Assembly (NCBI GenBank): GCA_004519485.1
Contig: CP038130.1
Coordinates: forward strand, 1,451,574 to 1,515,573
Reading direction: 5' to 3'
Length of the DNA: 64,000 bases
DNA from: Nannochloropsis oceanica
Lineage: Eukaryota; Sar; Eustigmatophyceae; Eustigmatales; Monodopsidaceae
The notes under the pieces were generated by a model, which worked only from the letters and a program-made list of their open reading frames with translations, searched no databases and was not told the DNA's origin. Each line of letters begins with the position of its first letter. Positions within the stretch are counted from its first letter, which is position 1. Below are positions 1 to 51,773 of the stretch, in pieces. A program made the translations under genes and the position numbers.

Positions 1-7
1 CTTCCAG

Positions 8-4107: not shown

Positions 4108-5667
4108 TTATGCCGAACATGGCACGCGATGTAAATGAGCTGTTTGAGATATTGCAGCTTCCAGTAAAGGTCTAAAAAGTTGCAAATCGATTCTAGTTTT
4201 GGCTGATTTCATGCAGTAAAAGCATCCTCCATCTTCACCGCAGGCCTGAATGCTTTTGTTGAAGCCATTAAAGAGAGTTATACATGAGTCAGTCATGACT
4301 GTGTCATCGTTATTTTGGTTTATGTACTGGTGGTGACGGAGGCTCGAGGAAGTCGTGAGCCATTTGAAGTAATATGAGACATCGTATCCGAGGGGCAAAA
4401 TTTCAATGACCGCACTTCCCACCGGCATGAAAATGATGTTTGTTAATCCAGCACCATGGGGTGAAATGAGAATCCGGCTGTTCAACACCTGAGAAGCCTG
4501 ATTAAATACTGTGCCCTCAAAATCATTAACGACTCTAGGTCTAATCCCCGTGACATCGAAGACGAAATTCACCACTTCGTCAAAGTTTGCGATGCCCCGG
4601 GTAGATTTTCTTTGCACCATGACGATTTCTCCGGGCTGCGATTCGATTGCGGAAGTCCGTTCGCAAGGTTGTAATAATTTGAAATCCTTCGTTATATTCT
4701 GTAAATTGGATAGAGCGGCATCATTTGACTCTCCGTACGCGATAGGTTGCATTGCTAGGAAATCGTACAAATAACGCCTGAACAGTATCGAGCTAAATGG
4801 TGTCCCGTACCAACTATAACTTGGAATAGTCAGTTGATCGAAGCAAACTATATAGTCAGTAGTGTTTTGTAAATGGGAGAGTCGGTCATCGATCATCCAG
4901 TTATGAATTCCAAGTTCCTTCGTAAACCACTCTGTTTCCATTGGCAAATCACCTTTCCAACCAAGGAGGCGAAGCCAATCTTTTTCATACGAGCTTGCAA
5001 GCTCGTTCTCCTCTATAGCCGACAGAACAATATCGGTTAGATTGAGTTGAAAGCCTGTATCTCCTTGCCAGAATTGATATGTGCCTATCATGACACGATA
5101 CGGGGGTGAAACACCAAACCTTTTCTTTTGACTCAATGTGTTGATTAGCGGCAGCAATGCCTCCACAAAATGAGGAATGTGGTACTGAAATGCCATGGAT
5201 ACGATTGTTGTGCCTGTTAGTTGAATTATCGCCAGATTATGTTGCGATTCTAAATCCTTCAAGGATTGCATATCCGACGTCACTTGCTGTCCCTCTCCGA
5301 TGTATCTCAATACACGATCCATACTATACATATGCCCTTCAGCAGTAAAATTTCCCGTGTAGAAATTGCGAGGCATTTTGGGCGTCCAACACGTCTTTGT
5401 TAAAGTACAAGTAGGCTTATCAGGAGCATCCTCAAAACAAGTCATATTTCCGTCCATAGGTAACGTGTGCAGGATTTTGGATCCGACGATCGAGGTTGCA
5501 TCATCTTGATTATACCAGTGAGGACGCAATCCTAGGGTTCTTTTTCTGATAGTTCCAACATTATCCCAATTGAAAACATGTACCCACAACTGAAGGTAAG
5601 ATATCACAGATATGACAATTAGCAAGGTAAACTTGTTGAGAAATCGACTGCTGCCTCGCTGTTGCAT
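4108..5667 (-). CDS. GT61-family (DUF563) glycosyltransferase, type II membrane protein
   Basis: A 519-residue intronless frame. Residues about 10-33 (FTLLIVISVISYLQLWVHVF) form a signal-anchor helix, so the catalytic part would lie in the Golgi/ER lumen. The C-terminal third carries the hallmark of the GT61/DUF563 family, SPHGAGLTNIIFMP (near residue 400) followed by VIEILPLGYD. Several Asn-X-Ser/Thr sequons and a Cys-rich tail (CGEDGGCFYC) fit a lumenal protein. GT61 enzymes transfer xylose, arabinose or GlcNAc in plants and animals; the donor here cannot be read from sequence. Its row at 4681 has 25 G+C of 60 bases, against 43 of 60 in the coiled-coil gene row at 8041. Copy 2 is at 58775-60334. 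Family call firm, substrate unknown. Confidence 0.85.
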   Translation of the reverse strand: MQQRGSSRFLNKFTLLIVISVISYLQLWVHVFNWDNVGTIRKRTLGLRPHWYNQDDATSIVGSKILHTLPMDGNMTCFEDAPDKPTCTLTKTCWTPKMPRNFYTGNFTAEGHMYSMDRVLRYIGEGQQVTSDMQSLKDLESQHNLAIIQLTGTTIVSMAFQYHIPHFVEALLPLINTLSQKKRFGVSPPYRVMIGTYQFWQGDTGFQLNLTDIVLSAIEENELASSYEKDWLRLLGWKGDLPMETEWFTKELGIHNWMIDDRLSHLQNTTDYIVCFDQLTIPSYSWYGTPFSSILFRRYLYDFLAMQPIAYGESNDAALSNLQNITKDFKLLQPCERTSAIESQPGEIVMVQRKSTRGIANFDEVVNFVFDVTGIRPRVVNDFEGTVFNQASQVLNSRILISPHGAGLTNIIFMPVGSAVIEILPLGYDVSYYFKWLTTSSSLRHHQYINQNNDDTVMTDSCITLFNGFNKSIQACGEDGGCFYCMKSAKTRIDLQLFRPLLEAAISQTAHLHRVPCSA

Positions 5668-7042
5668 ATATTCCCGGTAAATATCGAACTGCGTGTGTTA
5701 TATTTGTCTTCTATATGCCTGGGTACCACGCAAGAATAGCGTATAATAGGGTAAAGAGGTGAGTTTTTGGATCGTATGATGGCGACTATATAAGAAATGT
5801 CTATTAATATTTTTGTTATATATCACCCTTCTGGCAAAATCGACCATTTTATCATTTTTCTCTTTGCACAATACACACCTTCCCTTACACACTTGTTTCA
5901 AAAAGATAAAAGGACGGCTGTACAAACTTTGTCGAGTGACTTGAGCTGTTCTTTTCTGTTTGTCGTGCATTTGGCCTTGAACTGGTTTTGTTATTGAATT
6001 AAATGCCGTTTTACGCTTTTTCCCACTCAGATCTTCCCTTGAAAGTGAGGGTTTCACACCACGAAATGTAGATTGTTCGATTATACATAATTGATGAGAT
6101 AAATTGGTCTTGATCTTTTACAGTTGTCGTGAATTTTGGCTTCGAGTGCCAAAGCTTCATGTGATTTTGCCAAAACCGTTTACGTTCACCCCCGCGACGC
6201 AGCCTTGTCTTGCTCCGCAAGAGCCACAAAGAAAAAAGCTTTTTCCATCTATGCAATTACTATGCTACGTTGATGTCCCCCCTTCATCACTGTCCTGCAT
6301 CTGGTCTTTTGACGTGCCAAAGTCAATCCAAAAATGATCATTTTGACTAAAAACATTATTTTGTCCTTATTTCCCTCTGGCGGCAAGAGTCTTGCCCTCT
6401 CCCATTTCAAGGTTTTCTGCTTTTTCCTCTGACCACAACGCTGTGCGATGTTGTTTCCTTGAACCCGTACAGCCAAAGGGTTTCAAATTATAAGTCTACC
6501 AAACGACCGGGGTGGCTTGGCACTTCAATTTATTCGTCGACCCGTGCCGCCCGCGAAGTTTTCTCCCTAAAGTTTGTCCTCCTCAACACCTATCCACGAT
6601 CTCACGGATAACAATAAATATGGATGAATTATAGGGATCGCTCAAAAAAAAGAATCGTCATGATTAGGTCTTTGGCCTCTTGAAGGAAATTCGCAAGCTT
6701 CCCTTCACTGGACCGTAGAACTCATCCTTTTGCTATATAGCAATTTTCAAACGCGCCCTTTGGCACGTAACGCAGGCCTATTTTGGGCGCCAAGCAAAAA
6801 GCAAAATTGCTTAACCACGCCCGAGCTCACGCATAGCTGTGCTACGACCCATAAACATGCAAAACACAGGCACAAGCAGAGCACAGACACGGGCGGCTAG
6901 GATCTAACGAGATCCTCGCCACTTTCACCATCCTTCTCAGACGAACGAAGCAAGCCTCCGTGCTCAAGACACACACAACATCACGCCGCGCTCGTTCAGC
7001 AGCAGTGCCGCTGCCAATACCTCGTCTACGAAAACAAGGAAT
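5668..7042. other. Divergent intergenic region, GT61 and coiled-coil genes
   Basis: Upstream sequence of both the minus-strand GT61 gene and the plus-strand coiled-coil gene, so it should hold two promoters. I see AT-rich DNA near 5750-6400 and no coding frame with recognisable content. Copy 2 is 60335-61709, with small run-length differences. Confidence 0.55.
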
Positions 7043-8933
7043 ATGGTTTTGTCCACACGGCAGCCAAGGCCTGCCTTGTTGTCCTCACGGCGGCGACTTA
7101 ATTCTCCCAACACCGCGGACGATCCTTCTCCCTCCTCACCGCGGTACTCACGGCTTCTGACCCGTGTCACGGAACTGGAGGCAGCGCTCGAGGCTGCGAC
7201 GAAGGCTCCACCCATCGAGCAAAGCAGGTTCCAAAGACTAAAGGAAAAGCATGTCGCCACCAAGGCAGCTCTTGTGGAACTCATGGCCCAAAAAACAGAG
7301 CTCGAACAGCAAGCTGAAGCCACGCTGGCCAAATGGCAGGCACACCATGAACAGCAGGTGTACGAGCTGGCCACTTGTCAGGTATGCTATTTCTTGTGAG
7401 AGTTGGGTGCTGCTCGTGCTCAGGAGGAAGTTCTTGTTTGCCTCGGTGTTTTTTCTTCCTCTTTCTAGATTAAGTTTCTGCCTCTTCGCTCTCGCCGTCC
7501 TTCTCTTTCCGCCGGGTTAGACTCCATCCTCACTATCTTCCCCCAAAGCCCACCAGTAATCCACTCACTCAACCTCATCTCATAAGAATCAACTTCAACC
7601 TTATCACTACCGTCTGCTCATCGTTTCCCCCCCCCATTGATCATGCACTCCTTCAATTCCTCCCCGTTCGCTCCATGCCAATCATCCACAGCAACAAGCC
7701 CAGCAATTGGCCGAGCTCCCCGCCCTTCGCGCAGAGTGGACTCGGAGAGTACAAGCTCTAGAGGCCGAGGCAGGTACATACCGCTCGCTGTACGACGAGG
7801 CGCGGCAAGACAGTGAGAAAAATAAGCGGGAATTCATTGCAGTAGTGGAGGATCAGGCTCACGCCCACGAGACACATCTCCGGGCTGCCCGCGAAGAGGT
7901 GGATAAGTGGCAGGCGCGTTGTCGGGCATTAGAGGAGGCGGCCGCAGAAGCGCGAAGCCGCGATGAGGTACTGCGGCAACAGGAAGGGAAGCTGGAGGTA
8001 TGGCAGGCGGCGCTTAGGGAAAGCGAGGCCATGGCCCAGAAGGCGGAGGAGGGAAGGGCGCGCGCCGAAGCGCGGATTCAGCGTGCTGAGGTGGCTCACG
8101 AGGTTGCGCTCAATGAGTGGATGGCCAAGTTGGTGGCGGCGACGAGCGAAAAAAGTGGGCTGGCGGCTCGCCTTGAAAGTGTTGCGGTTGAGCTGGACCA
8201 CGTTAAGAGCCAGCTACGGGAGCGACGCCACGAAGCAGAATTGGCGGTAGAAGAAGCTGGGCGTTTGCGCGAGGCTTTGCGCACAGCAGAGCAGGCGGAA
8301 GAAGAAACACGACGGCAGTCGGAGCGAGAGAGAGAAGCGGCGCGGCGTGTCTGGCAGGAGGAGAAGGAGGAGTGGGAAAGTCGAGTGCGGGAGTTCGAGG
8401 CCCGGGCCCTTCAAGCAGAGGCCGAGGCGCGGGAAGCGGCTCGTGACGCGCTCGCCCACGAGCGTGAAACGATTACGGCTGAGACAAAGGCTCGGCAGAC
8501 GACAGGAAGCGAGATAAGGCGGCTGCAGGAGGAGATCGCGCACTTGAAGGAGGTGCTAGAGGACGAGCGGGTGAGGGCCATCAAGGTGGAGAACGACTGG
8601 AAGTACATCGTCAGAGACCTGCAACAACGACAAACACTCGCACCGGTGCAAACCTTAGCGGCGGTATGGGCACGACCACCTGCGGCTGCAACAACTGTAA
8701 CGGCAGCGGGTGCAGATACGTCGGTGGCAAATGAGAAAGCAGCTGCTGAGTGGGAGGAGAGAAGGGAGGACAAAGGCGGGGATATAGGGATATCGAAAAT
8801 GGAGCTTGAAAAAGTGAAATTACGGTGCATGCTGGCGATTCAAAAGGCAGAGCGCCGGGCGGAGGCCTACAAACGTAAGTGTTTGGAGCTGCACGAGCGG
8901 TGGAAGGCGGGCAGTGTAGTCGAAGGATTGTAA
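7043..8933 (+). CDS. Long coiled-coil protein (two exons), intact copy
   Basis: Exon 1 (7043-7381) and exon 2 (7692-8933) join in frame across a 310-bp GTATGC...CACAG intron to give 526 residues. After a basic, Ser/Pro-rich head (1-40), nearly everything to about residue 420 is heptad-like and packed with Glu, Arg, Ala and Gln (for example EEAAAEARSRDEVLRQQEGK). A less helical Ala/Thr/Val linker follows, then a short basic helix near the end. There is no motor, kinase or membrane segment. I do not recognise the family; a structural, centrosomal or tethering role would be a guess. The gene is very GC-rich. The A2 copy (61710-63599) is frameshifted by small indels, and only the C-terminal part is present in B2 (29777-30239). 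Confidence 0.8.
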
Positions 8934-9295
8934 AAAAAAATAAGGAAAGAAATAGTGCCACAGCCACAGCCTTGTCTCCCTTTCCCTGTTTTTCATGAAG
9001 TTACGTTTTTATTGCCTTCACTGCGTTTAACCTCCATTGTTATTCTCCACAAAGTATCCAGCTAGTGACGCTGAAGCTCTCGATGTAATGGCAGTCAAAG
9101 CCAGCTCCTTCGGGCTACAATCAGACTCGTTCTGGCATTTTTGGGGCTGAGCGACACCCACCATCTCTCCTTAACCGGAGGTACAAGCTTACTTGAGAAG
9201 CCATTGGACCTTGCACTCTCCTATGTGCTGCTGATGATGGATCCCATGACGTGTAGTCCATAGTCGTGGCAGGCACGTCACTGGACAGCAAGGAC

Positions 9296-9948
9296 CTACT
9301 GAGGCGCCATTCCCGAAGCTCTGCCGGTGAAGAAGTTCATGTCCTCCGGGAGGGAGATGGCGTTGGCGCTCTTGCCCTTGACTTGGCTGGAGCAATAAAC
9401 GTTCGGTGGGAGAAGGGGGTAGTGGAAAGGGGGACGTGGGGGGGGAGGGGGAACTCAGGCGAAGGCAAGCATGCACAACAAACACACAGACACATTCTAT
9501 TCTGTTTTCCTCTCCCTTGACCACAGCTTCAAATGATATGTAGTGCAATGTCTCCTCTTCATGGCCAGGAAAGGGTGGTCGGTGCTGTTGCGCCAGTGCG
9601 ATGCAGGGCCTGCTGCTACGTGTTAGCACTCGACACGCTACTATTGCTTAAGCTGGTGCGGTTCCGGATCTTGATGTTCCATGCAAGAAAGACATACATA
9701 AGCACTTGTAGAAGAGAAACCAAGGGGTAAATGACCAAGGAATAAAGCTGATCGATGCGGGATCGTACCTTTAAATGTACGAGGCCCAGGACGCTGGCCA
9801 CAAGGCAAAAAAGAAATGTGTTATTTAGGAGCGAAGAAAAGGAACAAAGCCAGGCAAGTAGTGACGGGATGGATGGAAGTGTCTGTTTCATTGATGTTGC
9901 TATGGTTGTTGCTATGGTTGCTGTTGTTGTACAATTTATCAAGTTCAT
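9296..9948 (-). CDS. Possible spliced small membrane protein gene
   Basis: Coding potential on the minus strand, convergent with the coiled-coil gene; exon structure uncertain. A likely last exon (9296-9386) follows a strong pyrimidine tract and CAG acceptor on the minus strand, and in one frame reads ISLPEDMNFFTGRASGMAPQ then stop. Further upstream an open stretch (about 9620-9850) reads IDQLYSLVIYPLVSLLQVL then MYVFLAWNIKIRNR, which looks like one or two membrane helices with a basic flank. I could not join these parts in a single convincing frame, and a short alternative intron inside the helix region is also possible. Family not recognised. The same region recurs at 30601-31260, and its end at 63961-64000. 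Confidence 0.3.
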
Positions 9949-10073
9949 GTTGTTTAGGAGGAGCAGATGTGAGGAGCCTAGTGAGGGGCTCCTTATGTTC
10001 CATGCAATTGTCCTTGCGTGAAATAATTGATAAAGTAAGCTATCGAGCTCTTCAATATGTCGTTTTTAACACA

Positions 10074-11222
10074 ATGCCTCACGCACAAAATCAAACAGGC
10101 CCCCTCCTTGACATCCGATCAGAACCATTAAAAAAGCACGGTCAAAGGAAGCGGTCTGCGCCCGAATCAAATCAACACACACAGGTCATCCGCGTTATGC
10201 ATCACCAGCACAAGGGTGACAAAGATCAGCAGCGGGGGTCAGAGCACGACCCTCTCCTTCTTCTGCAGCAAGAAGCTGCGCTCGTGGACGTGGGTGGGGA
10301 GGTGGAGCCCCGCCAAACGTGCCCGCACCTCCACCTTGCTTCGCATCTTCACATCTCCCCGGACGACCTTGCCTCCTCGGTCACCCCAGGCCGCTGCATG
10401 ACTTGTGGGAGCGAGGTCGAACCTTGGGTTTGTCTGGGGTGCAAGTGCGCCGTTCACTGCTCACGGTACGTGAATGCTGATGCGGAGGCACATTTCTTTG
10501 CTTCCCTGACGGCGGAGCGTGAGGAGAGATGGAGGGATGTGGTAACCGGGGAAAGCAGTGGGGAAGGCAGGGGCGGAAGGCGGCTCAATACTGCCACTGG
10601 CATGCCCTTTCCGAACGGTGGAGGGAGGTCAAGGCAGGAGGAAGGAAAAGGGCACGGCCTGGTGTTGTCGTTGAGCGACTTGTCCGTGTGGTGCTACCTT
10701 TGCAGCAGCTACGTCAAGCATGACCGACTTGTTCCTTTCTTGGTGCGGGCCGAGGCCCTGAAGTTTAACACTCCCGACAAGACAGCGCTGCTGGCAGGAA
10801 TTCAGACGCGCTTTCAGACGGGGCTCGTGCTGCCGAACGGAATGGACGACGCCGAAGAGGAGAAGGAGGGTGTGGCGGATGTTAAACCTACGCCTGCCCA
10901 ATGTGTTTTTGAGCACCTCAAGGCTTGCAGTCTCCTGGCTAAAACCGTACGAGTAGGGTCTGTGGCCGAGGCTCAGGCTCGCGGCGACCTGCGGAGCGTG
11001 TTGGTGTTAAGCGAGGGCGAGGCTGATGGGGAGGAGGAGGGAGAAATAATAGAGATGGGAATGGGAGGGGAAATCATGGTAATGCCGTCAGAGAAGGAAG
11101 AGGTACGGGAGGCCTTGGCAGCAGGCAAGGAGCTGGTGGTTGTGCGGGTAGGTTTGGGTGGGATAGCTGCAGGGCCTCAAGACGTGGAAGTGATGCTGCG
11201 GCAAATGCTTGAGGCGACCTGA
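10074..11222 (+). CDS. ZnF-UBP domain protein (HDAC6-type ubiquitin C-terminus binder)
   Basis: From the ATG at 10074 the protein has 382 residues; the frame stays open upstream to 9816, but that part overlaps the opposite-strand gene and looks non-coding. A zinc finger of the UBP class spans about residues 83-225: CPHLH, then CMTCG, WVCLGCKCAVHCSRY, and after a long insertion HGLVLSLSDLSVWCYLCSSY. The residues that hold the free Gly-Gly end of ubiquitin in HDAC6 (Arg of the GRY motif, Trp and Tyr of WCY, and the Tyr three residues after the final Cys) are all present. The insertion between the RY motif and the last His-containing strand is unusually long and Gly/Arg-rich. No deacetylase or peptidase domain is attached; the tail is acidic. 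The B2 copy (31386-32538) is broken by indels. Confidence 0.75.
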   Translation: MPHAQNQTGPLLDIRSEPLKKHGQRKRSAPESNQHTQVIRVMHHQHKGDKDQQRGSEHDPLLLLQQEAALVDVGGEVEPRQTCPHLHLASHLHISPDDLASSVTPGRCMTCGSEVEPWVCLGCKCAVHCSRYVNADAEAHFFASLTAEREERWRDVVTGESSGEGRGGRRLNTATGMPFPNGGGRSRQEEGKGHGLVLSLSDLSVWCYLCSSYVKHDRLVPFLVRAEALKFNTPDKTALLAGIQTRFQTGLVLPNGMDDAEEEKEGVADVKPTPAQCVFEHLKACSLLAKTVRVGSVAEAQARGDLRSVLVLSEGEADGEEEGEIIEMGMGGEIMVMPSEKEEVREALAAGKELVVVRVGLGGIAAGPQDVEVMLRQMLEAT

Positions 11223-12060
11223 GAAAGGACGGAAATCCGATGAGATTATATCTTTTCGATATGCGCCTCCCTTCCCATTTCTCCCACTATATTATGGCGT
11301 GGCACCAACATTTATGCTCGATTAAGAAGTCAGGCGGGTGACCGCCGTTTCTCCCCACTTTTTTGCGTAACCGTTAGAGCACGAAGCGACTCGCTCGAGA
11401 AAACACATAGGGTTGCGTCGATGGTCGTAACCCACATCAGCAGTAGGCGGAGATCCTATCGCCCTCCATCCGATGGTGGTATTGTGGTTGCATGAAAGTC
11501 CTTAGAGGTCATGGTCTTATGCGAGGGGCAAGCAACAAGCGAGGCCGTTCTCATTCCAAACTTTTGCTCTCTCGTCTCACTCTTCCCACCTGGCGATTCA
11601 AGCGCCTACAAAAACGCGTCACCTCGATGATTCGGGGGCTGTACCAAATATGGAACCAGTCATGGACATTCACAGAGGCATCGTGAGGATTTCGAGGAGC
11701 CCGTTGTGGCACTTGTTTGCGAAGGGGCGGCAAGGCGAAGGGAATGAGTCTCCGTGCTTGAACACCTTTCGCGTTCCCTTCTCACCCCATGGATGTGATT
11801 GAGCAGTATCCGCGTTGTAATTTGATCGCGTCTGTGGCCATTACATGTCACTTAAAGAAAATATGCCGAGAGACTATCAATATGTGGCACGGCAGGTGTA
11901 TGGGCCACGAGCAGTTGGTACTTGGAGGGGACCTCGGCTCAGAGAGGGCATGTATGATAACGTACGCTAGCCATCGGCAAAGTATTGGAGCTTCAATATC
12001 CGATGTACCAGTCGGATGGGGCATGAAGCCGAGTCATCTATGACTGGCCCCGATGAAGTT

Positions 12061-12252
12061 TTATATTTGTCCAATGCCCAACCTTGCCTGCTTGCTGGCC
12101 GTCCAGACTAAGAAAAGGCCTGGTCGCCATGCCACGAGACAGCCAAGTACGCCAAATGCAGCAGTAATATCTATGCTTGTAAATACTATGATGCCATTAA
12201 AATCTTGCGCTTGGCCAGGTCTTGGTCTTACTGCGGCTGCTGCAGCCCCCAT
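12061..12252 (-). other. Hydrophobic open frame inside the 2-kb unit
   Basis: On the minus strand of each unit a 63-codon frame contains FNGIIVFTSIDITAAFGVLG followed by a Trp-Arg-Pro and a second hydrophobic run, which would make a membrane hairpin. A second minus-strand frame further along (13155-13367) ends in another hydrophobic stretch (ATYIGITLLTAGIA...VVYFLA). They could be exons of one repeated minus-strand gene, but I cannot connect them by splice sites with confidence. Equivalent frames lie at 14073, 16086, 33377, 35389 and 37401. Confidence 0.2.
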
Positions 12253-15200
12253 GAGCTTCGTTTCGACGCCGCCTTACAACGACAGTGTGGAACTCGGTCC
12301 TACTTAGGGGGATGAAATAATCAAGAGAAGGATTGCAACGAGCCAGTAAAAAAAGAAAATATGCAAAACAAACAACTCTTCATGCGGCCCTGCACCGTTT
12401 TCCCTCCTCCCATCCCCTCCCTCACATGTATTTCCTTGGTAAGCACTCTGTGGCCTCTTTCTCGTGCTCTGCCTCCTTCCTGTCCTTCTTGTCCTTCTTA
12501 TTCTTCTCTATCTTTTCTCCTCTTCTTATCCTATGTCCATACGCCCACCTGTGTTGTCTCCATCCTCCTTCTCCTCCTCTTTTTCCCTTCCTCCTTCTGC
12601 TCTCTTCCCTCCTCTTCTTTTTCTTCCACCTATTTCGTCTCCTCCTTTTCGAGCATCTTGAACACCAATCCCTCTTCCTTCCCTCCACACATCGTATTAG
12701 TCTCCTCTGAGTATACTAGAGATTCTCCCTCTGTCTTGAATGTGGTCCCACATGCCCTTTCCGTCCTGCCGTCCCGCTGTCGCCCAGCACGCCTGCACTC
12801 ATCCTTAATGGCTTACGCGAAGTGCTTCTGTATGCTATCTGTGAGCGGGGGCGTGTGTCAAAAGAGGGAGAGAAGAGTCAATATCTGTGTAGGATATTCA
12901 CAGGGAGGACGTAGCTCAGGTCCGCGCACGCACGCACAGGCGACATATGCCTCCCTCAATCAGCCTCATCGGCGCCAGCTCTGACGCGACCTTCTGGTAA
13001 GTGATGAAATAGAGAGGGAAAAGGTAAAGCGGGCGTATCGAGGGCTTCGCGCCATAGTGGTGGCGTTAGAAATGGGTGGTGTTTTGGAGGGAACGGAAAT
13101 CGGGGGGCGGGTTGACCTTGCTTGGCTAGACATTGGTAAGTCAAGTATGGGCTGTTACGCCAGGAAGTAGACGACTGCATCACTACATTTTATCAACGTA
13201 TGCCTCGCAATCCCTGCGGTCAGTAGCGTAATTCCGATATATGTGGCTTTAGTAGGAAGTAAGCCTGACACTTGCATTCTATACCGCGCGTGGCATTCAG
13301 ATTCGCTGTGTTTTTGCTTTTCTTTGGGAAGGGGTGGTAATGGTGGGTGACCGCCGTTTCTTCCCACATTATTTTTGCGTAACCGTTAGAGCACGAAGCG
13401 ACTCGCTCGAGAAAACACATAGGGTTGCGTCGATGGTCGTAACCCACATCAGCAGTAGGTGGAGATCCTATCGCCCTCCATCCGATGGTGATATTGTGGT
13501 TGCATGAAAGTCCTTAGAGGTCATGGTCTTATGCGAGGGGCAAGCAACAAGCGAGGCCGTTCTCATTCCAAACTTTTGCTCTCTCGTCTCACTCTTCCCA
13601 CCTGGCGATTCAAGCGCCTACAAAAACGCGTCACCTCGATGATTCGGGGGCTGTACCAAATATGGAACCAGTCATGGACATTCACAGAGGCATCGTGAGG
13701 ATTTCGAGGAGCCCGTTGTGGCACTTGTTTGCGAAGGGGCGGCAAGGCGAAGGGAATGAGTCTCCGTGCTTGAACACCTTTCGCGTTCCCTTCTCACCCC
13801 ATGGATGTGATTGAGCAGTATCCGCGTTGTAATTTGATCGCGTCTGTGGCCATTACATGTCACTTAAAGAAAATATGCCGAGAGACTATCAATATGTGGC
13901 ACGGCAGGTGTATGGGCCACGAGCAGTTGGTACTTGGAGGGGACCTCGGCTCAGAGAGGGCATGTATGATAACGTACGCTAGCCATCGGCAAAGTATTGG
14001 AGCTTCAATATCCGATGTACCAGTCGGATGGGGCATGAAGCCGAGTCATCTATGACTGGCCCCGATGAAGTTTTATATTTGTCCAATGCCCAACCTTGCC
14101 TGCTTGCTGGCCGTCCAGACTAAGAAAAGGCCTGGTCGCCATGCCACGAGACAGCCAAGTACGCCAAATGCAGCAGTAATATCTATGCTTGTAAATACTA
14201 TGATGCCATTAAAATCTTGCGCTTGGCCAGGTCTTGGTCTTACTGCGGCTGCTGCAGCCCCCATGAGCTTCGTTTCGACGCCGCCTTACAACGACAGTGT
14301 GGAACTCGGTCCTACTTAGGGGGATGAAATAATCAAGAGAAGGATTGCAACGAGCCAGTAAAAAAAGAAAATATGCAAAACAAACAACTCTTCATGCGGC
14401 CCTGCACCGTTTTCCCTCCTCCCATCCCCTCCCTCACATGTATTTCCTTGGTAAGCACTCTGTGGCCTCTTTCTCGTGCTCTGCCTCCTTCCTGTCCTTC
14501 TTGTCCTTCTTATTCTTCTCTATCTTTTCTCCTCTTCTTATCCTATGTCCATACGCCCACCTGTGTTGTCTCCATCCTCCTTCTCCTCCTCTTTTTCCCT
14601 TCCTCCTTCTGCTCTCTTCCCTCCTCTTCTTTTTCTTCCACCTATTTCGTCTCCTCCTTTTCGAGCATCTTGAACACCAATCCCTCTTCCTTCCCTCCAC
14701 ACATCGTATTAGTCTCCTCTGAGTATACTAGAGATTCTCCCTCTGTCTTGAATGTGGTCCCACATGCCCTTTCCGTCCTGCCGTCCCGCTGTCGCCCAGC
14801 ACGCCTGCACTCATCCTTAATGGCTTACGCGAAGTGCTTCTGTATGCTATCTGTGAGCGGGGGCGTGTGTCAAAAGAGGGAGAGAAGAGTCAATATCTGT
14901 GTAGGATATTCACAGGGAGGACGTAGCTCAGGTCCGCGCACGCACGCACAGGCGACATATGCCTCCCTCAATCAGCCTCATCGGCGCCAGCTCTGACGCG
15001 ACCTTCTGGTAAGTGATGAAATAGAGAGGGAAAAGGTTAAAGCGGGCGTATCGAGGGCTTCGCGCCATAGTGGTGGCGTTAGAAATGGGTGGTGTTTTGG
15101 AGGGAACGGAAATCGGGGGGCGGGTTGACCTTGCTTGGCTAGACATTGGTAAGTCAAGTATGGGCTGTTACGCCAGGAAGTAGACGACTGCATCACTACA

Positions 15201-17528: not shown

Positions 17529-17704
17529 ATGAAAGTCCTTAGAGGTCATGGTCTTATGCGAGGGGCAAGCAACAAGCGAGGCCGTTCTCATTCCAAACTT
17601 TTGCTCTCTCGTCTCACTCTTCCCACCTGGCGATTCAAGCGCCTACAAAAACGCGTCACCTCGATGATTCGGGGGCTGTACCAAATATGGAACCAGTCAT
17701 GGAC
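17529..17704 (+). other. Candidate leader exon for the GT4-WbsX gene, inside the partial repeat unit
   Basis: The frame starting at 17529 (MKVLRGHGLMRGASNKRGRS...) runs to a GTATGG donor at 17705. A 56-bp segment ending in CACATCTGTAG at 17760 separates it from DNA that continues in frame into the ATG at 17777. Splicing would add a basic leader of about 64 residues. The homology of the partial unit with the complete units stops exactly at this donor. The reading frame and GT-AG ends are seen; that splicing occurs is inference. Confidence 0.3.
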
Positions 17705-17776
17705 GTATGGTTGAATTACATCGTATGATATCCTCGTTTTTAATATCCCCACATCTGTAGGCGGCTTCAGCAAGAT

Positions 17777-20428: not shown

Positions 20429-21753
20429 TAAGCTAAGAGTAAGTGTATTTCCATAGAAAACGGAGTCAAATCCTTGGACTCCAAGGAATCCATGGAAGAA
20501 AGGGGAGGGAGAGTCCAAACCAAGGGGTGGGCCTCAAAACGTAACGCTAGCTCGTAATGAAATGTACGAAAAGAAAAGCGTAGACGTCTATCATTATAAC
20601 TACATTATTCACAGCATCTCATTCATATGGCAAAGATTTCAACTCTGCATTTTTATTTTTATTTTGGGGGGGGGCTCTCCTGGTAGTGTCTACTGAAGAG
20701 ATTGCGAAGGGAAGGCAGAAGTTTACACTGAACTGGGGAAAACCAGCTCGACGATTGGATTTTGAATGCTAAGGGTAGTATCAGTTTGAGTAAAGTCTAA
20801 GCCCATTCATGTTTCTCACTTTATCTTCTCCAAATAACGCACGCCTTCACTTGCACTCTGCTAAGTATTTTGTCACCATGCTGGTGGCGATTTTGCCACT
20901 TCAGTATATTGCACTATTTTAATTTTGTGTACAAAGTGACGAGATAATTTCGGACGAGGTCACGTCATCCGTCTCCCCAAACTATGTACAAGCGACGACT
21001 TACAGCAGATGAGGACGCATTACATCAACTAACGAATGAATTCACGTGCAGGGCCTGAATTGTCCAAAACTTGTGCGACATGTGGTGCAGGCGTGTGCGA
21101 TGATCACTATGATGCTCTTTCAACCGGAATGGTGCTGGAACAAAGGAGCGACTTGTTCAGAGCGGGATGGCGTTATCGTCCCGCGAAAATGCCAGTGGCC
21201 TGATGCCGGCAGCTAACCCGTCATGCGGGTCGGGCTTATTTTTGTGCTCAAAATATGATAGAAGTAGATGTCACCATGCCGGTGGCAAAGCGCCTAGAGG
21301 CGAATAAATCCCTAAAAAATAAAAACAATAAAAAAACTTAAATAACTTTCTGTATAGTCCGTATCAGGTTGTAATGTCGGTGGCTTGTAATGGTGATTAA
21401 AACCCCAAAAAAGTAAAAAGAACAGAAAACGCACATAACTTTCTGTATAGTCCGTAATAATAAAACTATAATATTTTTTTTTACACTTCTCCTTTTTCTC
21501 TACACCTCTTTTCTTGTCCTGTACTAATTTTCACTGCCCTAACGATCCTTTACAGTGTAAAGGTCAATCGCACATCTTTGTGTGAGACAATGCCCGGGAC
21601 TGACCAACGGATGTCGGAGACGTAATGACCCTTCTCCAAAAAGTACTTGTCGAAGAAGAAAGAAATCTGCACATTGCATGCCTGCTTTCCAAGAATTCAT
21701 GGCGTCGGGGGATGCGTACAAGAAACCTCTGAATATAATTTCAAAAGAAATGA
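20429..21753. other. Intergenic region between the two fusion glycosyltransferases
   Basis: AT-rich DNA with no supported gene. It contains a MITE copy at 21141-21456 and a G run after a T-rich stretch near 20650-20690. Its counterpart is 41744-43068. Confidence 0.6.
21141..21456 (-). mobile_element. MITE copy with two tandem right ends (B1)
   Basis: Related to the foldback element at 28114-28517, which supplies loop and right-arm motifs: CGTCCCGCGAAAATGCCAGT, GGCCTGATGCCGGCAG, GCGGGTCGGGCTTAT, AATATGATAGAAGTAGATGT. The terminal motif TAACTTTCTGTATAGTCCGTA occurs twice, ending near 21362 and 21456, with a second partial arm (GGTGATTAAAACCCC) between them. This looks like one element inserted next to or into another, both now incomplete. 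The left arm is missing. The orientation given is that of the loop relative to the 28-kb copy. Confidence 0.75.
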
Positions 21754-24700
21754 ATGACATTGATGAGGAGAGGGAATAGCTGCAACCTCACTATAATGCA
21801 GCGCTTCAAGAAAAGCTTCGAGAGAAGTAGACATTCTCTGTCTTCTTGGCGACGATATTCTCATAATGCCACCATTTTGATGCTCGCCTTTTTTGTGGTT
21901 GGCTGGACCTTAAACCAGACGTATCTCTTGTCCCTTATTGATGAGCAGAAGATTTCAGAAAGAGCGATTTACACAGATGAGACAAGGAAGGGACTACCTT
22001 TGAAAGACAAACATCTCTCCAAAATCAGTCATCAAAATCTGACCTGTGTCCAGCCTTTGTACGGAGTGGATAATCGACAATTCAAAATTTTGTGTACATT
22101 TGAGATTTCAGACGCCCACACTTACTCGGGGATCTTGTACGACCCCAATGGAGCTTGCAATTCATTATCAGTGAAAGCCCTAAACGGTCTGCTGTCGGGT
22201 GGAGGAAGCTTAAAGATTGAATGCGCAACAAGTGGTACCGAATCAAGCTGGCTGTGGCATTTGCAGGTGACGGGAACTTGCCCCGTCCTCCCAATTTCTG
22301 ATCACCGCAGACCAGAAGCAAACGCATCTGTTACTGTTCCGGCCGTGGAGATTCAAGATAACTCAAAGAAATCTAGAATCTTCAATGTTTGCCCCCAAAT
22401 TCTGCGTTCCCCCGGCCGGTTTCTGTTTTTTAAACTTGGCGAAGATTTTGCTGACCAGTTAATTAGTATAGCGAGTGCAATAATGCTAAGCCGGAGACAT
22501 GGCTTTACATTAGTTCTTCCTTCTGATCTCTCAGCACCATTCTCTTTGATGGAAGTGGCGGAAGGGAAGGGAAAGAAGGCCCCACTCTCAGTTCTATACA
22601 ACCTAGCGAGGCTGGAGCACACACTATCGAATGCCGGTTATACAGTGACATTGGACCTGCCGACAAGTAAAAATGGCCATCTTTCTTGGTTTAAGGACGC
22701 ACTGGACCGTCATAGTGGCATACGAGAGGTTGATTTTTCGCTTCTCAAGTACTCAAGGCTCGAAGATATTGTGGTAGATATTGGAGACCTCTTTCTCGAC
22801 ATGATTTCGCTTGATGATATATTGCACACAGAGCTTTTCCAAATTGTCCAGTTCCTTGCTTCATCCCTCAATCCCCTGATTTACTCGTCTGTAGAGCATC
22901 TGCGACAGACTTTGACCTCCATGAATCCAAAGGGGTTCAATGCTCTGGATTTTTTAATGGAGCATGACATGCCTCTGAATGTTTCAGGTGCAAAAAGCCT
23001 GGAGGCCCAATGGGAAGAAGCTTTTGTCTCACACGTAGCATTTGATGCACAGCTACCACTTTACATCGCCGGCGGAAATACAGGCGCACATAGAAAGTGT
23101 CAGCAGCTTTTATGCACTGACAAGTTCCTTCTGGGTGCCATGACATTCTTCCCAGAAGTGTTAAAGAGGTCCCCGGAAGTTATGGCTGCGGTCGATATGC
23201 TGCTTCTTGTGGAGGCCAATAGCTTCACTGGACTGAAGTATTCTACTTTTTCACATTTGATTGCGACACTACGCGACGCTCGATTCACTTTCCACGTGCA
23301 AGATTCCTCCATGCTACATCCTTTCCACGACCTTGTAAGATTTGGGACTCTGACTCCCTTGCCGCCCTGTCTCTGTACAAAGGAGAAAATCGAAGCTCTA
23401 AGATCGTTGGATACTGATTCCAAAAGCAAAAGGAAGCTGGCAGAGATCCGTTCATACATTAAAAGACTTGGTTTATCTTCCATACCTTTGGTCTTCGAAA
23501 TGACCTATATTTTGAATTTGTTTGAAACACCTGGAAAAGAGGACCTTGCAACGCAGGTGCTGCTTGAGTTTACAGCTTCTCATCACTCAGATAGATTGGT
23601 TGAAGGCCTGCGTCTCTTTTTGGAGCGAGATCCTATTCATGAATCCTTATTCGCCCGCGCTCTTTGTCATCACTTTCCCAGTATCGGTGATGTGACATGC
23701 AAAACGGCTAAACCGAGCAGGCTTCTTATTGTGTCGCATAGCTTGGTATCAGATGGTGCCCCCGTCGTTCTTGTGGACTATATCCTCTTTCTGTCTCGCG
23801 TCTTGAGATTGGATATAAAAATTGTGACCAGGGCAGGCATGCCACAACATACATCCCTTCAGCGTGACCTTGAAAGAGCTAATATTCCTATTAGCTACGA
23901 CAGCACATTCGACGCAAGAGATTTTGATGTCATCTATATCAACACTCTGGACATGTGGTGGTACAATGGCCTTTGTTCGAAAGCAAAACGAGAAATATCT
24001 GCATCCGATGGATGGGCTTCAAAAGTCATATGGTGGGTGCATGAATCTGCAAGAGATCATTTCACAGATGTTCATCCCTACTTGCCAAAAGTCTTGAAAA
24101 GTGTAAATCAGGCTATTTTTACTACGCCTCAGAGCCGAGATGTCTACAAAGACATTATTGCCGACATTCCCTCTACCGTCATTGCGAACCCATTGGACAT
24201 CAATTTAAGTCGGGATGCGCAGTTGCAAAGGCTTCGTCTCAAACACCGATCTGAAGAAATACAAGTGACCACCTCCGTCACATTTATATTGATCGGAACA
24301 GTTCACCCTGGCCGTCACCAGCTCGATTTTGTGCATGCTGCACTGCAGCTCCTTCAATCTTGCCCGAAAGCTCAGACTTTTTATTTCGTTATCGTCGGAT
24401 TTGATGGGGTCGCAGATGAGTACGAGGCAGAAGTGAAAGCGGCAATAGATGATGCGGGAGAGGATGTCGCGAAACATTTCAGATTAGTTCCTAGATTAAG
24501 TCACTATGATTGCCTCCAATTGCTATCTGGTGCTGATGTCCTGGTAAGCATGAGCGACTTTGAGGCATTTGGAATGACACTCCTAGAAGCCATGAGCATG
24601 GGGAAACCTGTCATCACCAGCAAAGTGGATGGCGTGCCGAGTGTTATTTACCACGAAGCTATAGACGTGCCCTTAGGAAATGTTCTTCTTCTAAAAGAAG

Positions 24701-24942
24701 CTATGGGGTCCATGCTGGAGGAAAAAAATAGGTCCTTGCATGCGATGCTAGCGATCCGGCATTATGAAAATTTCCAAACACTCGATACCAGGCTCAGACA
24801 TATTCAAGTTCTTGCGAACGCTATCAGGGGGAAACAAATAGTGTCACATTCTCCTCCTCTCGATACGAAGACCTTAGAACAAAAAAGAAAACACAAGATT
24901 AAAAGCCATAGACGAGGAAGAAAAAAAAGGAAGATAAATTGA
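21754..24942 (+). CDS. O-fucosyltransferase-like / GT4 fusion glycosyltransferase, complete copy
   Basis: 1,062 residues from 21754, or 1,048 from an in-frame ATG at 21796 that directly precedes the basic flank of the anchor and may be the true start. A membrane helix (ATILMLAFFVVGWTL) lies near residue 40-55. Residues about 220-510 resemble the O-fucosyltransferase fold: RFLFFKLGEDFADQLISIAS, then HGFTLVLPSD, and the C-terminal signature VEANSFTGLKYSTFSHLIAT. Residues about 650-1020 are a GT4 glycosyltransferase: LLIVSHSLVSDGAPVVLVDY, KVIWWVHES, FILIGTVHPGRHQLDFVHAA, and the EX7E motif in SDFEAFGMTLLEAMSMGKPV, with its first Glu at residue 937. The tail is strongly basic. It sits 1.3 kb after the GT4-WbsX gene, same strand. 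The B2 copy is cut off after residue 805. Enzyme specificity unknown; the two-domain layout is clear. Confidence 0.85.
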   Translation: MTLMRRGNSCNLTIMQRFKKSFERSRHSLSSWRRYSHNATILMLAFFVVGWTLNQTYLLSLIDEQKISERAIYTDETRKGLPLKDKHLSKISHQNLTCVQPLYGVDNRQFKILCTFEISDAHTYSGILYDPNGACNSLSVKALNGLLSGGGSLKIECATSGTESSWLWHLQVTGTCPVLPISDHRRPEANASVTVPAVEIQDNSKKSRIFNVCPQILRSPGRFLFFKLGEDFADQLISIASAIMLSRRHGFTLVLPSDLSAPFSLMEVAEGKGKKAPLSVLYNLARLEHTLSNAGYTVTLDLPTSKNGHLSWFKDALDRHSGIREVDFSLLKYSRLEDIVVDIGDLFLDMISLDDILHTELFQIVQFLASSLNPLIYSSVEHLRQTLTSMNPKGFNALDFLMEHDMPLNVSGAKSLEAQWEEAFVSHVAFDAQLPLYIAGGNTGAHRKCQQLLCTDKFLLGAMTFFPEVLKRSPEVMAAVDMLLLVEANSFTGLKYSTFSHLIATLRDARFTFHVQDSSMLHPFHDLVRFGTLTPLPPCLCTKEKIEALRSLDTDSKSKRKLAEIRSYIKRLGLSSIPLVFEMTYILNLFETPGKEDLATQVLLEFTASHHSDRLVEGLRLFLERDPIHESLFARALCHHFPSIGDVTCKTAKPSRLLIVSHSLVSDGAPVVLVDYILFLSRVLRLDIKIVTRAGMPQHTSLQRDLERANIPISYDSTFDARDFDVIYINTLDMWWYNGLCSKAKREISASDGWASKVIWWVHESARDHFTDVHPYLPKVLKSVNQAIFTTPQSRDVYKDIIADIPSTVIANPLDINLSRDAQLQRLRLKHRSEEIQVTTSVTFILIGTVHPGRHQLDFVHAALQLLQSCPKAQTFYFVIVGFDGVADEYEAEVKAAIDDAGEDVAKHFRLVPRLSHYDCLQLLSGADVLVSMSDFEAFGMTLLEAMSMGKPVITSKVDGVPSVIYHEAIDVPLGNVLLLKEAMGSMLEEKNRSLHAMLAIRHYENFQTLDTRLRHIQVLANAIRGKQIVSHSPPLDTKTLEQKRKHKIKSHRRGRKKRKIN

Positions 24943-25219
24943 TGGGTCCCCCAAAAAATGACGATATAAATTGTGGAGATAGGGAATAGTAAAAAAAATA
25001 GCGGGTACGCCCGCCCTGTGGGCAGGCAGGGGTGTGTATTTGTTGCGTGAGTAATAGGAAAAGAAAGGGGTGGGAAAGGAGGAAGTATGGGGGAGCATGT
25101 AGACTATGTGCACACCTGGGGGAGTGCATTGTGTAATGGTGTGTGGTGTGTGAAGAAGTAGGGGAAGAACAAGAAAGGAAGAGTCCTTTTTGTATGTTCT
25201 TTTTTTGTTTCTTTTTTGT
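24943..25219. other. Intergenic, 3' of the fusion glycosyltransferase
   Basis: Purine-rich DNA with a T-rich end. I see no gene. Confidence 0.5.
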
Positions 25220-25352
25220 GGGTCAAACAAATCCCAGGGGCAGACCTTTCAACAAGTTGCAATCTACTTGCCGTACCCGGTATTTGCCCACGGTCAGCTC
25301 TACGTCACGCTCTCGAGAGCGAGAGTAGGAGGCCCCATCAACATCACCATGA
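25220..25352 (+). pseudogene. PIF1-type helicase fragment (motifs V and VI)
   Basis: A short frame contains SNKSQGQTFQQVAIYLPYPV followed by FAHGQLYVTLSRARVGGPIN. These are helicase motifs V and VI of PIF1-like proteins, whose usual form is NKSQGQT...LP.PVF.HGQLYVALSR. No Walker A/B region precedes it and the match stops within about 45 residues, so it is a broken remnant. PIF1 domains occur in host helicases and in Helitron transposons; I cannot tell which source this is. Confidence 0.7.
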
Positions 25353-26410
25353 TGATCACTCACCTTCCTCTGCACGGCCAGCGACCTCCTGCACTCACCA
25401 CACCCAATGTGGTGTCTGTAAGCAAGTGTTTGTGTACATGCGACCAGCACAGCCACCACTACAGCAACCCCAAGAAATGATGGAAGCATAGAATACCACT
25501 ACAACGCACAGACAGGCCTCATTAAAAAAGAGGAAAGACCCCCCCAAAAATAAACAGACCCCCGACACAGACTCTCTCTGATAACACCGAGTTGAAAGCG
25601 CGGATGTTGGGGTTAAACTAGCGGCTCCTGCGCGTATTGGGTTTGAACAGGTTGCATCTCAGATGGTGTGTCCGGCACCCACCCTCTTTTGCAACAAATG
25701 CTGAAAATAAGGCCGGCGGGGTTACGATCCACCGACTCATCCGGCTAATTCAAGGAGCCGCAGTGCTGGCAAGTCATTCGAGCTCCCAAGTTACATGGAT
25801 GTTGGCTCCAGGAAGTCAAACTTGTATGCGGGCGCGGTGCTCGCGTGGTCGATGCTGTGCGCGCTGGTCATGCGTGGCCTCACGGTCAGCTGCACGTTCG
25901 GCTGTCCGCACTTCTGGCTCTTTGCACCGCCCTCGACGGGCTTGCCGTTCAGCTGCGCACTGGGTTACAAGTACTTCGGGGTTCAAGCGCCGGCGTTGTC
26001 GACCCTGTCGGTCAGCTAATGTCAAGCCGGCCTTGCATCATTCGTACTTCCCGCTCTATTTCCTGGTAAAACATTTTTCCATGGAAACTGTGTGTACAAT
26101 TTCCCGAAAAAAGAGAACCGGTGACATCGGATATTTTTTAATCGTAGCTCGTGGTAGACAGTTTGGCAAAGACCTCTCCGATTTCGAACGGCTGATATTG
26201 CAGCTTTGGGAACAATAAAAAAGAGCAAAGTAGAAAGACAAAAAGTGCAGGTATTCTATATAGCCTGCTTTCAACCATCTTGGGAGGCCTCTGTATGAGC
26301 GTTATATTTTTTTTCTCCTGAGAATATATATCTTGTAGGTGTGAAAGGATTGAGTTGTTACAGCGCTCACTCCGTCATCTATTTTCAACGGCCTTCCGTC
26401 AAGGTTTCGC
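25353..26410. other. Region without a recognised gene, downstream of the helicase fragment
   Basis: Contains a 193-codon open frame at 25637-26218 with an Arg/Cys/Ser-rich composition that does not look like a real protein. One frame near 25845-26030 reads PHGQLHVRLSALLA...ALDGLAVQL, faintly like a second, more decayed PIF1 C-terminus; too weak to call. Confidence 0.35.
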
Positions 26411-26933: not shown

Positions 26934-28046
26934 TACTCACATTCTTGAGGGGGTGTCAGGCCTATGCACTTAGAGGCATTTGCCAGCTGAGGTAGGCACG
27001 CATGACCGTCTCTTAATTTGCTCCCACGTCGACCACCAAGTGTCTCACAACACAAGGGCCTTTTCTTGAAACTTCCAATGCACGGCAGAGTACAGTGCTC
27101 CATTCTCCACGAAGGATGCCCCCCATAAGTCCCCTTATCATTATTTTGACAGTACCACGCGGCGGATACGAAGGGGCCACTCGCAACCAAAGAATACGCC
27201 TGTTTATCTGTCATCGTAATGGACGTTCCTGTGACGTTCACCGTAATCACGTCGCAGTCGGGTTCGGGAAGCTAAGTTTCTCGAGCACGTTCAGATTGTC
27301 GAGCTTCTAGAGATTGTTGGGGTATATTTTTTTGATAGGAAGTCCCTGAGAGTCCAGACTGGCCACCAGGTCGAGATCATGCAACACAATTCTGGAAGCC
27401 CCCGGCGAGACCTCAGGCTCTATCCATGCCAACGTCGCCTCAAACGCATCCATCACAGTGTCGGATCCCGTCAGGGGCACGTAATTTGATCGGACGGTGA
27501 ACTTGTACGTGTGCACCCATCCAGTCGACGTCTCTGTCGAGTCCACGACAAACAGGGACGGCTGAGACGCGGCGGTTCCCAGTCACAAGACCCTCGTCAT
27601 CCGGACTTGTTCAAAGCCCTGGTATTTATTGGAAGGAGGGCCTAGTTTGATGGTGGAGGTAAGGTTGACATACTTCTCTACAGGGACACATGAGTTGATA
27701 AGCATCGCTTTAATCAAGACCCCCGAGGGAACGAATCTGTCGGCAGAGTTCTTAACTCCGGTGGGGTACCATCCCTCCATAAAATACTGGCGGAGTAACA
27801 GTGCCAATCCAGACACATGAGGGCATGACATGGACGTTCCCTGCCTTCTCCCTGTATCGCAGCTTGTCTGAGTCTTGGCGGAATTAATGGCGTTGCCAGG
27901 TGCGATCAAGTCGGGCTTGATGCGGCCGTCGATGGTAGGTCCGATGGAGGAGAAGTAGGCAACGGACAATTTCGGTCCGAGAGACGAAAGGGGTTCAAAA
28001 ATGGTCTCCGCGCAAGAAATGGAGAATTCGCAAGGACGAGTCTAAG
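26934..28046 (-). pseudogene. Decayed subtilase (S8 family, Kp43-like arrangement)
   Basis: Minus-strand coding remains of a secreted subtilisin-type protease. The N-terminal half of the catalytic domain, with the Asp and His, is absent. What remains begins near 28043 (CEFSISCAETIFEP), continues with AYFSSIGPTIDGRIKPDLIA and the catalytic-serine motif GTSMSCPHVSG, then GFEQVRMTRVL, and a C-terminal beta-domain (ATLAWIEPEVSPGASRIVLH, DLDLVASLDSQG). There is an in-frame TGA at 27583-27585, a TAG near 27307, and a frame change near 27270 before VITVNVTGTSITMTDKQAYS. With the missing front and several breaks, this is a pseudogene, unless unrecognised introns remove the breaks. A foldback MITE lies just beyond its broken 5' side. 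Confidence 0.7.
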
Positions 28047-28113: not shown

Positions 28114-28517
28114 ACGGACGATACAGAAAGTTACCTAAGTTTTTTGCTCTTTTTACTTTTTTGGGGTTTTAATCACCATAACGAGCCTTGTTACCGGCAT
28201 AAAGACATCTCCTTCTATCATATTTGGAGCACCAAAATAAGCCCGCCCCGTAGGGGAAGCTGCCGGCATCAGGCCACTGGCGTTTTCGCGGGACGATGAC
28301 GCCTTTCCGCTCTAAATAAGCCGCTCCTTTGGCTGCCGGTCATTCCGCACCAACGAGTGGGACTGATGCCGGCAGCTTCCCCTACGGGGCGGGCTTATTT
28401 TGGTGCTCCAAATATGATAGAAGGAGATGTCTTTATGCCGGTAACAAGGCTCGTTATGGTGATTAAAACCCCAAAAAAGTAAAAAGAGCAAAAAACTTAC
28501 ATAACTTTCTGTAGTAT
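28114..28517. mobile_element. Foldback MITE with long inverted arms, best-preserved copy
   Basis: Left arm about 28114-28273 and right arm about 28362-28517 are near-perfect inverted repeats of about 155 bp around an 88-bp loop. Termini resemble TACGGACTATACAGAAAGTTA, slightly altered at both ends here. Internal arm motifs are GGGGTTTTAATCACCATAAC, TATCATATTTGGAGCACC and AATAAGCCCGCCCCG. No transposase is encoded; the twin open frames on the two strands are just the inverted arms translated. Other copies or relics lie at 3340, 21141, 26801, 42456 and 58007. The termini could suit a Tc1/mariner-like TA-targeting transposase, which is inference. Confidence 0.9.
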
Positions 28518-28903
28518 CAGCGTTGCAGCTCTTCAATCTCAAATCCGAGAGTATGTGACTATTTTTTCTCTGTTGAAGAAAAGGCGAAATGAAATAAAGA
28601 CGATGAATCTCAAGCTGCGCACGTCTTGTTATCTACGTAAAGTCGAAAGGGTTTTCAATGCGACGTTAGTAAGATTCAACCACCGTCAGATGAAGGGTTT
28701 GAAAGAGCTTCAGCAAGTATTTCTTTTTCTCTTTTTATTTGATCTTTTTCTCGCTCGCCAGAACCAAATTCAGATAGAGTATTTGCGTCCACCCACCTCG
28801 CTGCCCAAAATATATACAACTCATTCACTCCCAAAATGGCAACAAAACTATCAAATATGACAGGGACCCTTTCAACTTTTGACTCCAGACCAAAAACCCG
28901 ACA
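28518..28903. other. Upstream region of the GT61-like gene
   Basis: AT-rich; a 101-codon open frame (28555-28860) has no recognisable content. TATA-like AATATATACAAC at 28808-28819 lies about 90 bp before the start codon of the next gene and may be its promoter. Confidence 0.4.
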
Positions 28904-29676
28904 ATGGGTGCGTTTAGTAATACTAAACTCTCTCATTTCGAGAAGTTACCTTTTGCTTACACCAGTCTACTTATTGTGGCAACCACAGCATATTTGGGGC
29001 TGATTCGGGGACATATTTATGAGACCGCTTGTTGGCCAATTATGTCGCAGGCTGCTGCATCGGAAGGAAGCCATTCAAATATGGCCAACAAAACAGGATC
29101 TCATCGATCAACACCTGAGATGCTTGTGCAGACAATATATGGTACAAATATAAGTGGGAGGCCTATTTATGTCTCGTCCACTCATAGTAACCTGTATTAT
29201 ATCCCCACAACAACCATGTGGGATAACGTGTATAAGGGAATGCTTTTCGATGACAAACAGAAGATTGTGCCTTTTTCATCCTTTAATGCACTTGGAGGTT
29301 TAGATCGGGCTCCTCTCGAAGAGGGCCTCAAACCTCTTGTTACCATGGCTGATACCGAGGCCGATCGCATAGATGAAAACGTTGTCCTGATTACATTCTG
29401 GCATCAGTCATGGGGTCACTTGATAGACTCAATATGTGTTCTTACGGACTTCTTTTATCGCCATCGGCTTAATGAGCTAGGGTACAAGGTCATGCTTTCA
29501 GTACCAGAATGCCCATGGGCAGAAAATGTACTCGAAATTGCACGAACGCTACTTGGAAATCATTTCGTCAACCTCCGGGAGCTTGAAGATTCAAAACGAC
29601 TCCTGTCGTTTCAAGAAGTAATCCTTGTTCACCAGGCGCCTTCCAAGGTGTCCTTTTTGAGTTTTCCACAAAATGT
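28904..29676 (+). CDS. GT61-like glycosyltransferase, N-terminal part, cut by gap
   Basis: 257 codons run from the ATG at 28904 into the N gap. A signal-anchor helix (FAYTSLLIVATTAYLGLI) lies at about 16-34. The following lumenal part contains GRPIYVSS, VVLITFWHQSWGHLIDSICV and EVILVHQAPSKVSF. The WHQSWGHLIDS stretch corresponds to the Trp-His motif early in the GT61/DUF563 domain, and the general layout matches the complete GT61 protein at 4108-5667, though the sequences are far from identical. The diagnostic SPHGAGLTN block would lie beyond the gap. Asn-X-Ser/Thr sites are present. Intronless as far as seen and close to the fusion glycosyltransferases, so probably the same pathway. Family assignment is moderate because only half is visible. 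Confidence 0.6.

Positions 29677-51738: not shown

Positions 51739-51773
<35 letters not shown>

Follow-up and report, generated by a model that had tools for sequence, protein, structure and literature searches.

Chromosome 19 of Ostreococcus tauri carries putatively foreign glycosyltransferase (GT) genes, the RgpF-Wbx fusion Ostta19g00070, transposon-related genes and paralogous copies; the expression of its GT genes is tied to virus resistance, and an AER61 glycosyltransferase that is co-regulated with them is located on chromosome 2 (PMC5082852). Low-GC outlier chromosomes are described for Bathycoccus and other Mamiellales, a significant part of their genes being putatively transferred, and according to the abstract of that report the Bathycoccus genome is free of transposons (PMC3491373). 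The galactosaminogalactan (GAG) cluster of Aspergillus fumigatus has been compared to bacterial operons by the authors who described it (PMC4817252). Against this background we analyzed a stretch of 64,000 nucleotides from Nannochloropsis oceanica (contig CP038130.1, positions 1,451,574 to 1,515,573), called the window below, in which several glycan-related enzymes are encoded close together. We think it reasonably probable that this is an AT-richer, mobile-element-laden nuclear island with glycan-modifying enzymes of different origin, similar to O. tauri chromosome 19. The reading is built on observed features, namely the domains of the encoded proteins, their hydrophobic N-termini, bacterial relatives, mobile-element remnants and repetition.

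The window is a scaffold of eukaryotic type with a single gap of 100 N at 29677-29776. Three intact, intronless glycan-enzyme genes, each in a single open reading frame (ORF), lie within 21 kb: a GT61-type glycosyltransferase gene with an N-terminal anchor (519 aa, 4108-5667, minus strand), a gene for a GT4-like and WbsX (GH99-like) protein, also with an N-terminal anchor (883 aa, 17777-20428, plus strand), and a gene for a 1062-aa protein (21754-24942, plus strand) with a sub-threshold O-FucT-like N-terminal part (PF10250) and a C-terminal GT4 domain (PF13692). In 50 first-order Markov resamples of 17001-26000, stop-free runs reached 207 codons at most, which bears out the statement of a preliminary description of the locus that the main frames have no intron. 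The same description had counted four glycosyltransferases and labeled them GT61, GT4-WbsX and O-FucT-GT4. Pfam, in a scan of 29 window segments that is less than a full six-frame scan, identifies three glycan-enzyme genes and upholds the labels GT61, WbsX and C-terminal GT4, but the O-FucT and the GT4 of the WbsX protein lie below cut-off, and the fourth ORF has no family match and runs into the gap. The gap itself, a near-identical repetition, interleaved genes and mobile-element remnants are additions to that description.

The WbsX domain of the 883-aa protein is assigned to PF14307 with 154.3 bits against a cut-off of 25.1 (E 7.8e-45). Pfam names WbsX a glycosyltransferase. The likeness to GH99 endo-alpha-mannosidases lies in the EWxE motif, kept as EWGE at residues 834-837, which aligns with EWHE of the GH99 endo-mannosidase 4acy; the EWHE glutamates are catalytic in GH99 (PMC11025385). 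The WbsX profile, however, reaches 4acy only weakly, at E 0.1, in a search that placed an unrelated ribosomal protein first, at E 0.016. The GH99-like label of plasmid matches backs the GH99-like view of the domain. Judged from sequence alone, WbsX is a GH99-like domain, and the protein may transfer sugars, trim them, or both.

A scan of 84,980 prokaryote genomes, which sees close relatives only, confirmed two of seven pattern matches as relatives of the WbsX protein, one in a Microgenomates metagenome-assembled genome (L001) and one in an uncultured bacterium (L002), both of one phylum. The identity to these two proteins is 39-43% by the tool's count, over residues 134-861 and 120-859. In two overlapping samples of 286 genomes from the phylum, that of L002 including the genome of L001, matches of any kind at E <= 0.001 were found in 8/286 and 9/286 genomes, and only L001 and L002 matched across both parts of the protein. 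One relative is a protein of 1294 aa with GT4, GT4-like and WbsX parts; that of L002 (2811-8015) has 1735 aa and adds RgpF after WbsX. The GT4-like middle of these proteins is placed by alignment, as Pfam reports just the first GT4; for the equivalent of the N-terminal part, neither relative matched a Pfam family at E 0.001. The aligned part sits internally in the bacterial proteins, away from the N-terminus. An ABC-2 permease and an ABC ATPase are encoded upstream of the L001 gene, and what reads as an ABC ATPase upstream of the L002 gene. Plasmid matches were more distant: none of 67 records covered 80% of the query, and the best ten of the 67 showed 23-29% identity, nine of them being annotated GH99-like.

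Since an identity of 39-43% to bacterial multidomain proteins extends over nearly the whole WbsX protein, its gene was probably acquired laterally, from a bacterial O-antigen-type locus, and its N-terminal anchor would be a later addition after transfer. A viral origin was considered and rejected: four IMG/VR scans, which see close relatives only, returned no relative, and the phage matches amounted to two records covering the WbsX part only, at 25-29%; a giant virus is still a conceivable source. A literature search under WbsX gave no title on a eukaryotic GT4-WbsX protein; the O. tauri paper spells the name Wbx and was absent from the papers returned, and we claim no novelty of publication.

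The C-terminal domain of the 1062-aa protein exceeds the Pfam cut-offs of two GT4 families, with 62 bits against 27 for PF13692 (E 9.4e-17, residues 843-989) and 60.5 against 26.4 for PF00534, and is of the bacterial kind. The O-FucT family, PF10250, reaches 13 bits against 31.5 (E 0.08, residues 435-508); this part has no relative in the PDB below E 0.78, and its structure model was too poor to use. In both bacterial genomes, the best match to the whole 1062-aa protein is the N-terminal GT4 of the WbsX proteins. A fused-gene link between the WbsX gene and its neighbor was dropped after a control on 286 genomes of the phylum, with at most six candidates scored per genome: when the GT4 part (residues 645-1062) served as query, the bacterial fusion's GT4 stood only 20th in the list of matches.

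The GT61 protein reaches 48.1 bits against a cut-off of 27 for PF04577 (E 1.8e-12), and its closest PDB chains are EOGT (9wjk, E 1.8e-4) and POMGNT2 (7e9j, E 4e-4). By these similarities it is of the eukaryotic EOGT/POMGNT2 type, and as the WbsX protein has bacterial relatives, the gene set is of mixed origins. The AER61 glycosyltransferase of O. tauri is presumably a GT61 as well. A plasmid search with the GT61 protein gave no match. Neither it nor the O-FucT-like part of the 1062-aa protein found a match in the 192 genomes scanned for each, a search in which the positive control was absent, so that its emptiness shows nothing. A transferred operon was among the candidates rejected, these two being matchless in that uncontrolled search.

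The four candidate ORFs have a GC content of 0.43-0.45 and a third-codon-position GC (GC3) of 0.41-0.49, whereas three other long ORFs have 0.55-0.61 and 0.61-0.63. The C-terminal remnant of a PIF1-type helicase (25223-25354, plus strand), which follows the 1062-aa gene at a distance of about 280 bp, is most like a Helitron helicase: Helraiser (7lcc) leads its PDB matches at E 2.6e-9, followed by PIF1-type helicases from E 6.9e-4. Pfam gives only UvrD_C_2 at E 0.057, and phage helicases match at E 3e-3 in the best six of 66 records. A foldback, MITE-like element at 28122-28513, with 154-nt arms that are 98% complementary and 84 nt between them, has a broken subtilase on one side and the fourth ORF on the other. 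Copies of a dispersed repeat, recovered with an nhmmer model made from copies in the window itself, occur at 3331-3549 (plus strand, E 8e-73, 79% identity to 28157-28358) and at 21131-21438 (minus strand, E 7.5e-65 for 21131-21325 with a weak piece to 21438, 81% to 28114-28331). The GT61 gene, the 1062-aa gene and the fourth ORF have repeat copies at distances of 559, 316 and 400 bp; for the 1062-aa gene the distance becomes 429 bp if the weak end piece is left out. In 219 of 100000 random placements all three repeats fell within 558 bp of a candidate ORF, a post hoc figure, obtained with a limit 1 bp short of the largest observed distance. Measured against the Mamiellales-type outlier island with GT genes, the window has the low GC and the mobile-element remnants, and a foreign origin is probable for one gene only.

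In another account, three GT genes of a GT-rich lineage have come to lie close together by accident. The window was picked after the fact, and algal GT families can be big, with 69 sialyltransferase genes in Bathycoccus that are not evidently clustered (PMC3491373). The common low GC and the nearby repeat copies suggest a distinct compartment instead, both being post hoc observations, and we consider a chance neighborhood unlikely.

A true biosynthetic cluster, with three or four enzymes in one pathway that selection keeps together, would agree with three anchored glycan-enzyme genes in no more than 21 kb and with the WbsX and 1062-aa genes standing 1.3 kb apart on the same strand, and it has a forerunner in the GAG cluster of a fungus. 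However, these two are the sole adjacent pair of the set, and the fused-gene link between them failed its control. The GT61 gene lies 12.1 kb from the WbsX gene, beyond three other features: a coiled-coil gene, not a GT (7707-8933, plus strand; coiled coil by eye, marginal Pfam match to DUF3157), a zf-UBP gene, likewise not a GT (9816-11222, plus strand; PF02148, E 1.2e-9), and an array, found by self-BLAST, of a 2.01-kb unit that has no recognized gene and is present in about 3.2 copies in tandem (11333-17704, plus strand). The array lies directly upstream of the WbsX gene and has a counterpart at 32650-39019; an ORF inside it (12361-12984) has no Pfam match. After the 1062-aa gene follows mobile-element and pseudogene debris: the helicase remnant, the foldback element and a subtilase (S8) fragment (27310-28041, minus strand; PF00082, E 1.9e-14, profile positions 186-273 of 288) with an in-frame TGA at 27583-27585, past which the stretch has no S8 match in Pfam and was assigned by eye. 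Sugar-nucleotide, export, flippase and polymerase genes were not met among the 29 scanned segments, and the origins of the enzymes are mixed. One pathway is thus an improbable explanation in our view. The earlier proposal of a single surface or wall glycan keeps its footing in the enzyme types, which fit surface or secretory glycan work, but loses it in the arrangement, with only two adjacent, unrelated genes and debris between the others; as a glycan-assembly pathway it suffers further from the missing accessory genes and from the GH99-like nature of WbsX.

Several observations weigh against the island reading that we prefer. The flanks of the candidate ORFs are low in GC too (five stretches have 0.42-0.49, where five other stretches have 0.46-0.52), and for this reason the low GC may belong to the region instead of marking genes as foreign. 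In the WbsX protein, the N-terminal part misses the Pfam cut-off for its GT4 label, with 16.2 and 18.3 bits for PF13439 against 28.5. GT4 enzymes usually carry an E-x7-E motif; here E380 and K388 (window 18914-18940), invariant in both bacterial relatives, stand in its place, and because of this and the missed cut-off the transferase activity of the GT4-like part is uncertain. The evidence for a donor comes from two genomes out of 84,980, in a scan limited to close relatives, and gene capture by mobile elements is conjecture. Two structure models had a mean pLDDT of 37.4 and 37.8, too poor for a fold search. Finally, the claim that each protein has an N-terminal signal anchor agrees with the single hydrophobic stretch that follows a net positive charge in all four ORFs, but the best 19-residue Kyte-Doolittle mean in the first 90 residues, 1.95 for GT61 and 2.11 for the WbsX protein, is marginal in the 1062-aa protein (1.59) and the fourth ORF (1.53).

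Much of the sequence before the gap recurs after it. Positions 29777-45487 are a near-identical copy of 8474-24172 on the plus strand (99.78% identity), and 54669-64000 are one of 1-9335 (plus strand, 99.90%), including a GT61 gene at 58775-60334 on the minus strand. The second contig therefore has the order 8474-24169, 9.2 kb of new sequence, and 1-9335; 29777-30641 matches 63140-64000, which gives a period of 33363. In this contig the 1062-aa gene breaks off after about codon 805, its ORF (43069-45522) continuing to 817; the truncated copy has no GT4 match since the cut precedes residues 843-989. This permuted order and period would fit a very young, real 33.4-kb tandem amplification or a circle. 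However, the copies are separated by the 100-N gap, and the larger pair differs by 24 indels (18 of a single base) against 7 substitutions, with no difference over 15038-24169 and 20 of the 24 indels at 8908-11542, within 3.1 kb of the start of the second contig, as a poor consensus at a contig end predicts. The smaller pair has 8 mismatches, all of them inside 8411-8419, and 7 indels of one base each. Because the differences in the larger pair are mostly indels, concentrated at the start of the second contig, the most likely reading is a duplicate assembly of the same DNA that includes a contig end of poor quality, and a real amplification or circle is possible at a clearly lower probability. 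Less probable still is a locus built by Helitrons and foldback elements that gathers bacterial and eukaryotic glycan enzymes, with a recent 33-kb amplification giving intact and truncated copies for variation of surface glycans, for example against viruses; we regard this fuller scenario as quite doubtful.

The fourth ORF (28904-29676, plus strand) is an unclassified open frame of 257 codons that starts with a hydrophobic stretch near its N-terminus and is interrupted by the scaffold gap. The fragment has no match in Pfam or NCBIfam and none in the PDB below E 1.5, so that no GT family was found for it; the one hit is to a PHROG, at E 0.029. It was considered as a second GT61 and rejected, as it does not align with the GT61 at 4108-5667. 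Elsewhere in the window, a PEBP gene lies at 45561-46094 (Pfam E 4.3e-14), and an AMPK-beta gene, whose carbohydrate-binding-module profile matches at 54183-54566 (positions 47-81, E 4.8e-9) and at 53370-53897 (positions 1-18, only E 0.24), is probably split by an intron. A glutamine-rich open frame of 1656 aa with low-complexity stretches (48043-53013) has no Pfam match. Identification of the ORF at 1198-1818 as Bet1-like was a guess from its appearance, unsupported by searches, and was dropped.

We propose that the WbsX gene would have been taken from a bacterial O-antigen-type locus and then fitted with an N-terminal signal anchor, and that the 1062-aa gene joins an O-FucT-like part to a bacterial-kind GT4. 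Because the hydrophobic N-termini follow positive charge, we propose type II membrane enzymes that would sit in the Golgi, where they may attach sugars to glycoproteins or a surface polysaccharide, or trim those already there. Changes in the number and integrity of these enzymes could then alter the cell surface, as proposed for O. tauri chromosome 19; location, activity, direction of transfer and a role in surface variation are what we infer from the features above. If the island reading is true, bacterial O-antigen-type enzymes such as WbsX would gather in low-GC, transposon-rich regions beyond the Mamiellales, or in another member of them, and the WbsX gene is a concrete candidate for bacterial transfer and for effects on the cell surface.

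Compared with bacterial O-antigen loci that contain WbsX, as in Plesiomonas shigelloides O66, L001 and L002, the window shares a WbsX behind a GT4-like part but has an N-terminal anchor, and no transporter genes were met among its scanned segments; the bacterial relatives carry a further GT4 domain, and that of L002 also RgpF, neither of which is part of the WbsX protein of the window. With the Aspergillus GAG cluster the window shares a eukaryotic glycosyltransferase and hydrolase lying together, whereas the presence of an epimerase and a deacetylase, and the co-regulation of five genes in a row, are that cluster's own (PMC4817252). This cluster and O. tauri chromosome 19 (PMC5082852) are precedents that speak against the earlier view of such clustering as unusual in a eukaryotic nucleus. 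The candidacy as an undescribed system also gives way, as the locus resembles a known kind of surface-glycan gene island, that of O. tauri chromosome 19, in its foreign-type WbsX-like gene, GT genes, transposon-related DNA and paralogous copies. "Wbx" in Ostta19g00070 would be WbsX, and the L002 relative has WbsX followed by RgpF, domains that are also joined in the O. tauri gene (PMC5082852). In the window, WbsX is instead joined to a GT4-like part, and RgpF was not found; its genes, known here from their sequence, stand among ordinary genes and on no known separate chromosome, unlike those of O. tauri chromosome 19.

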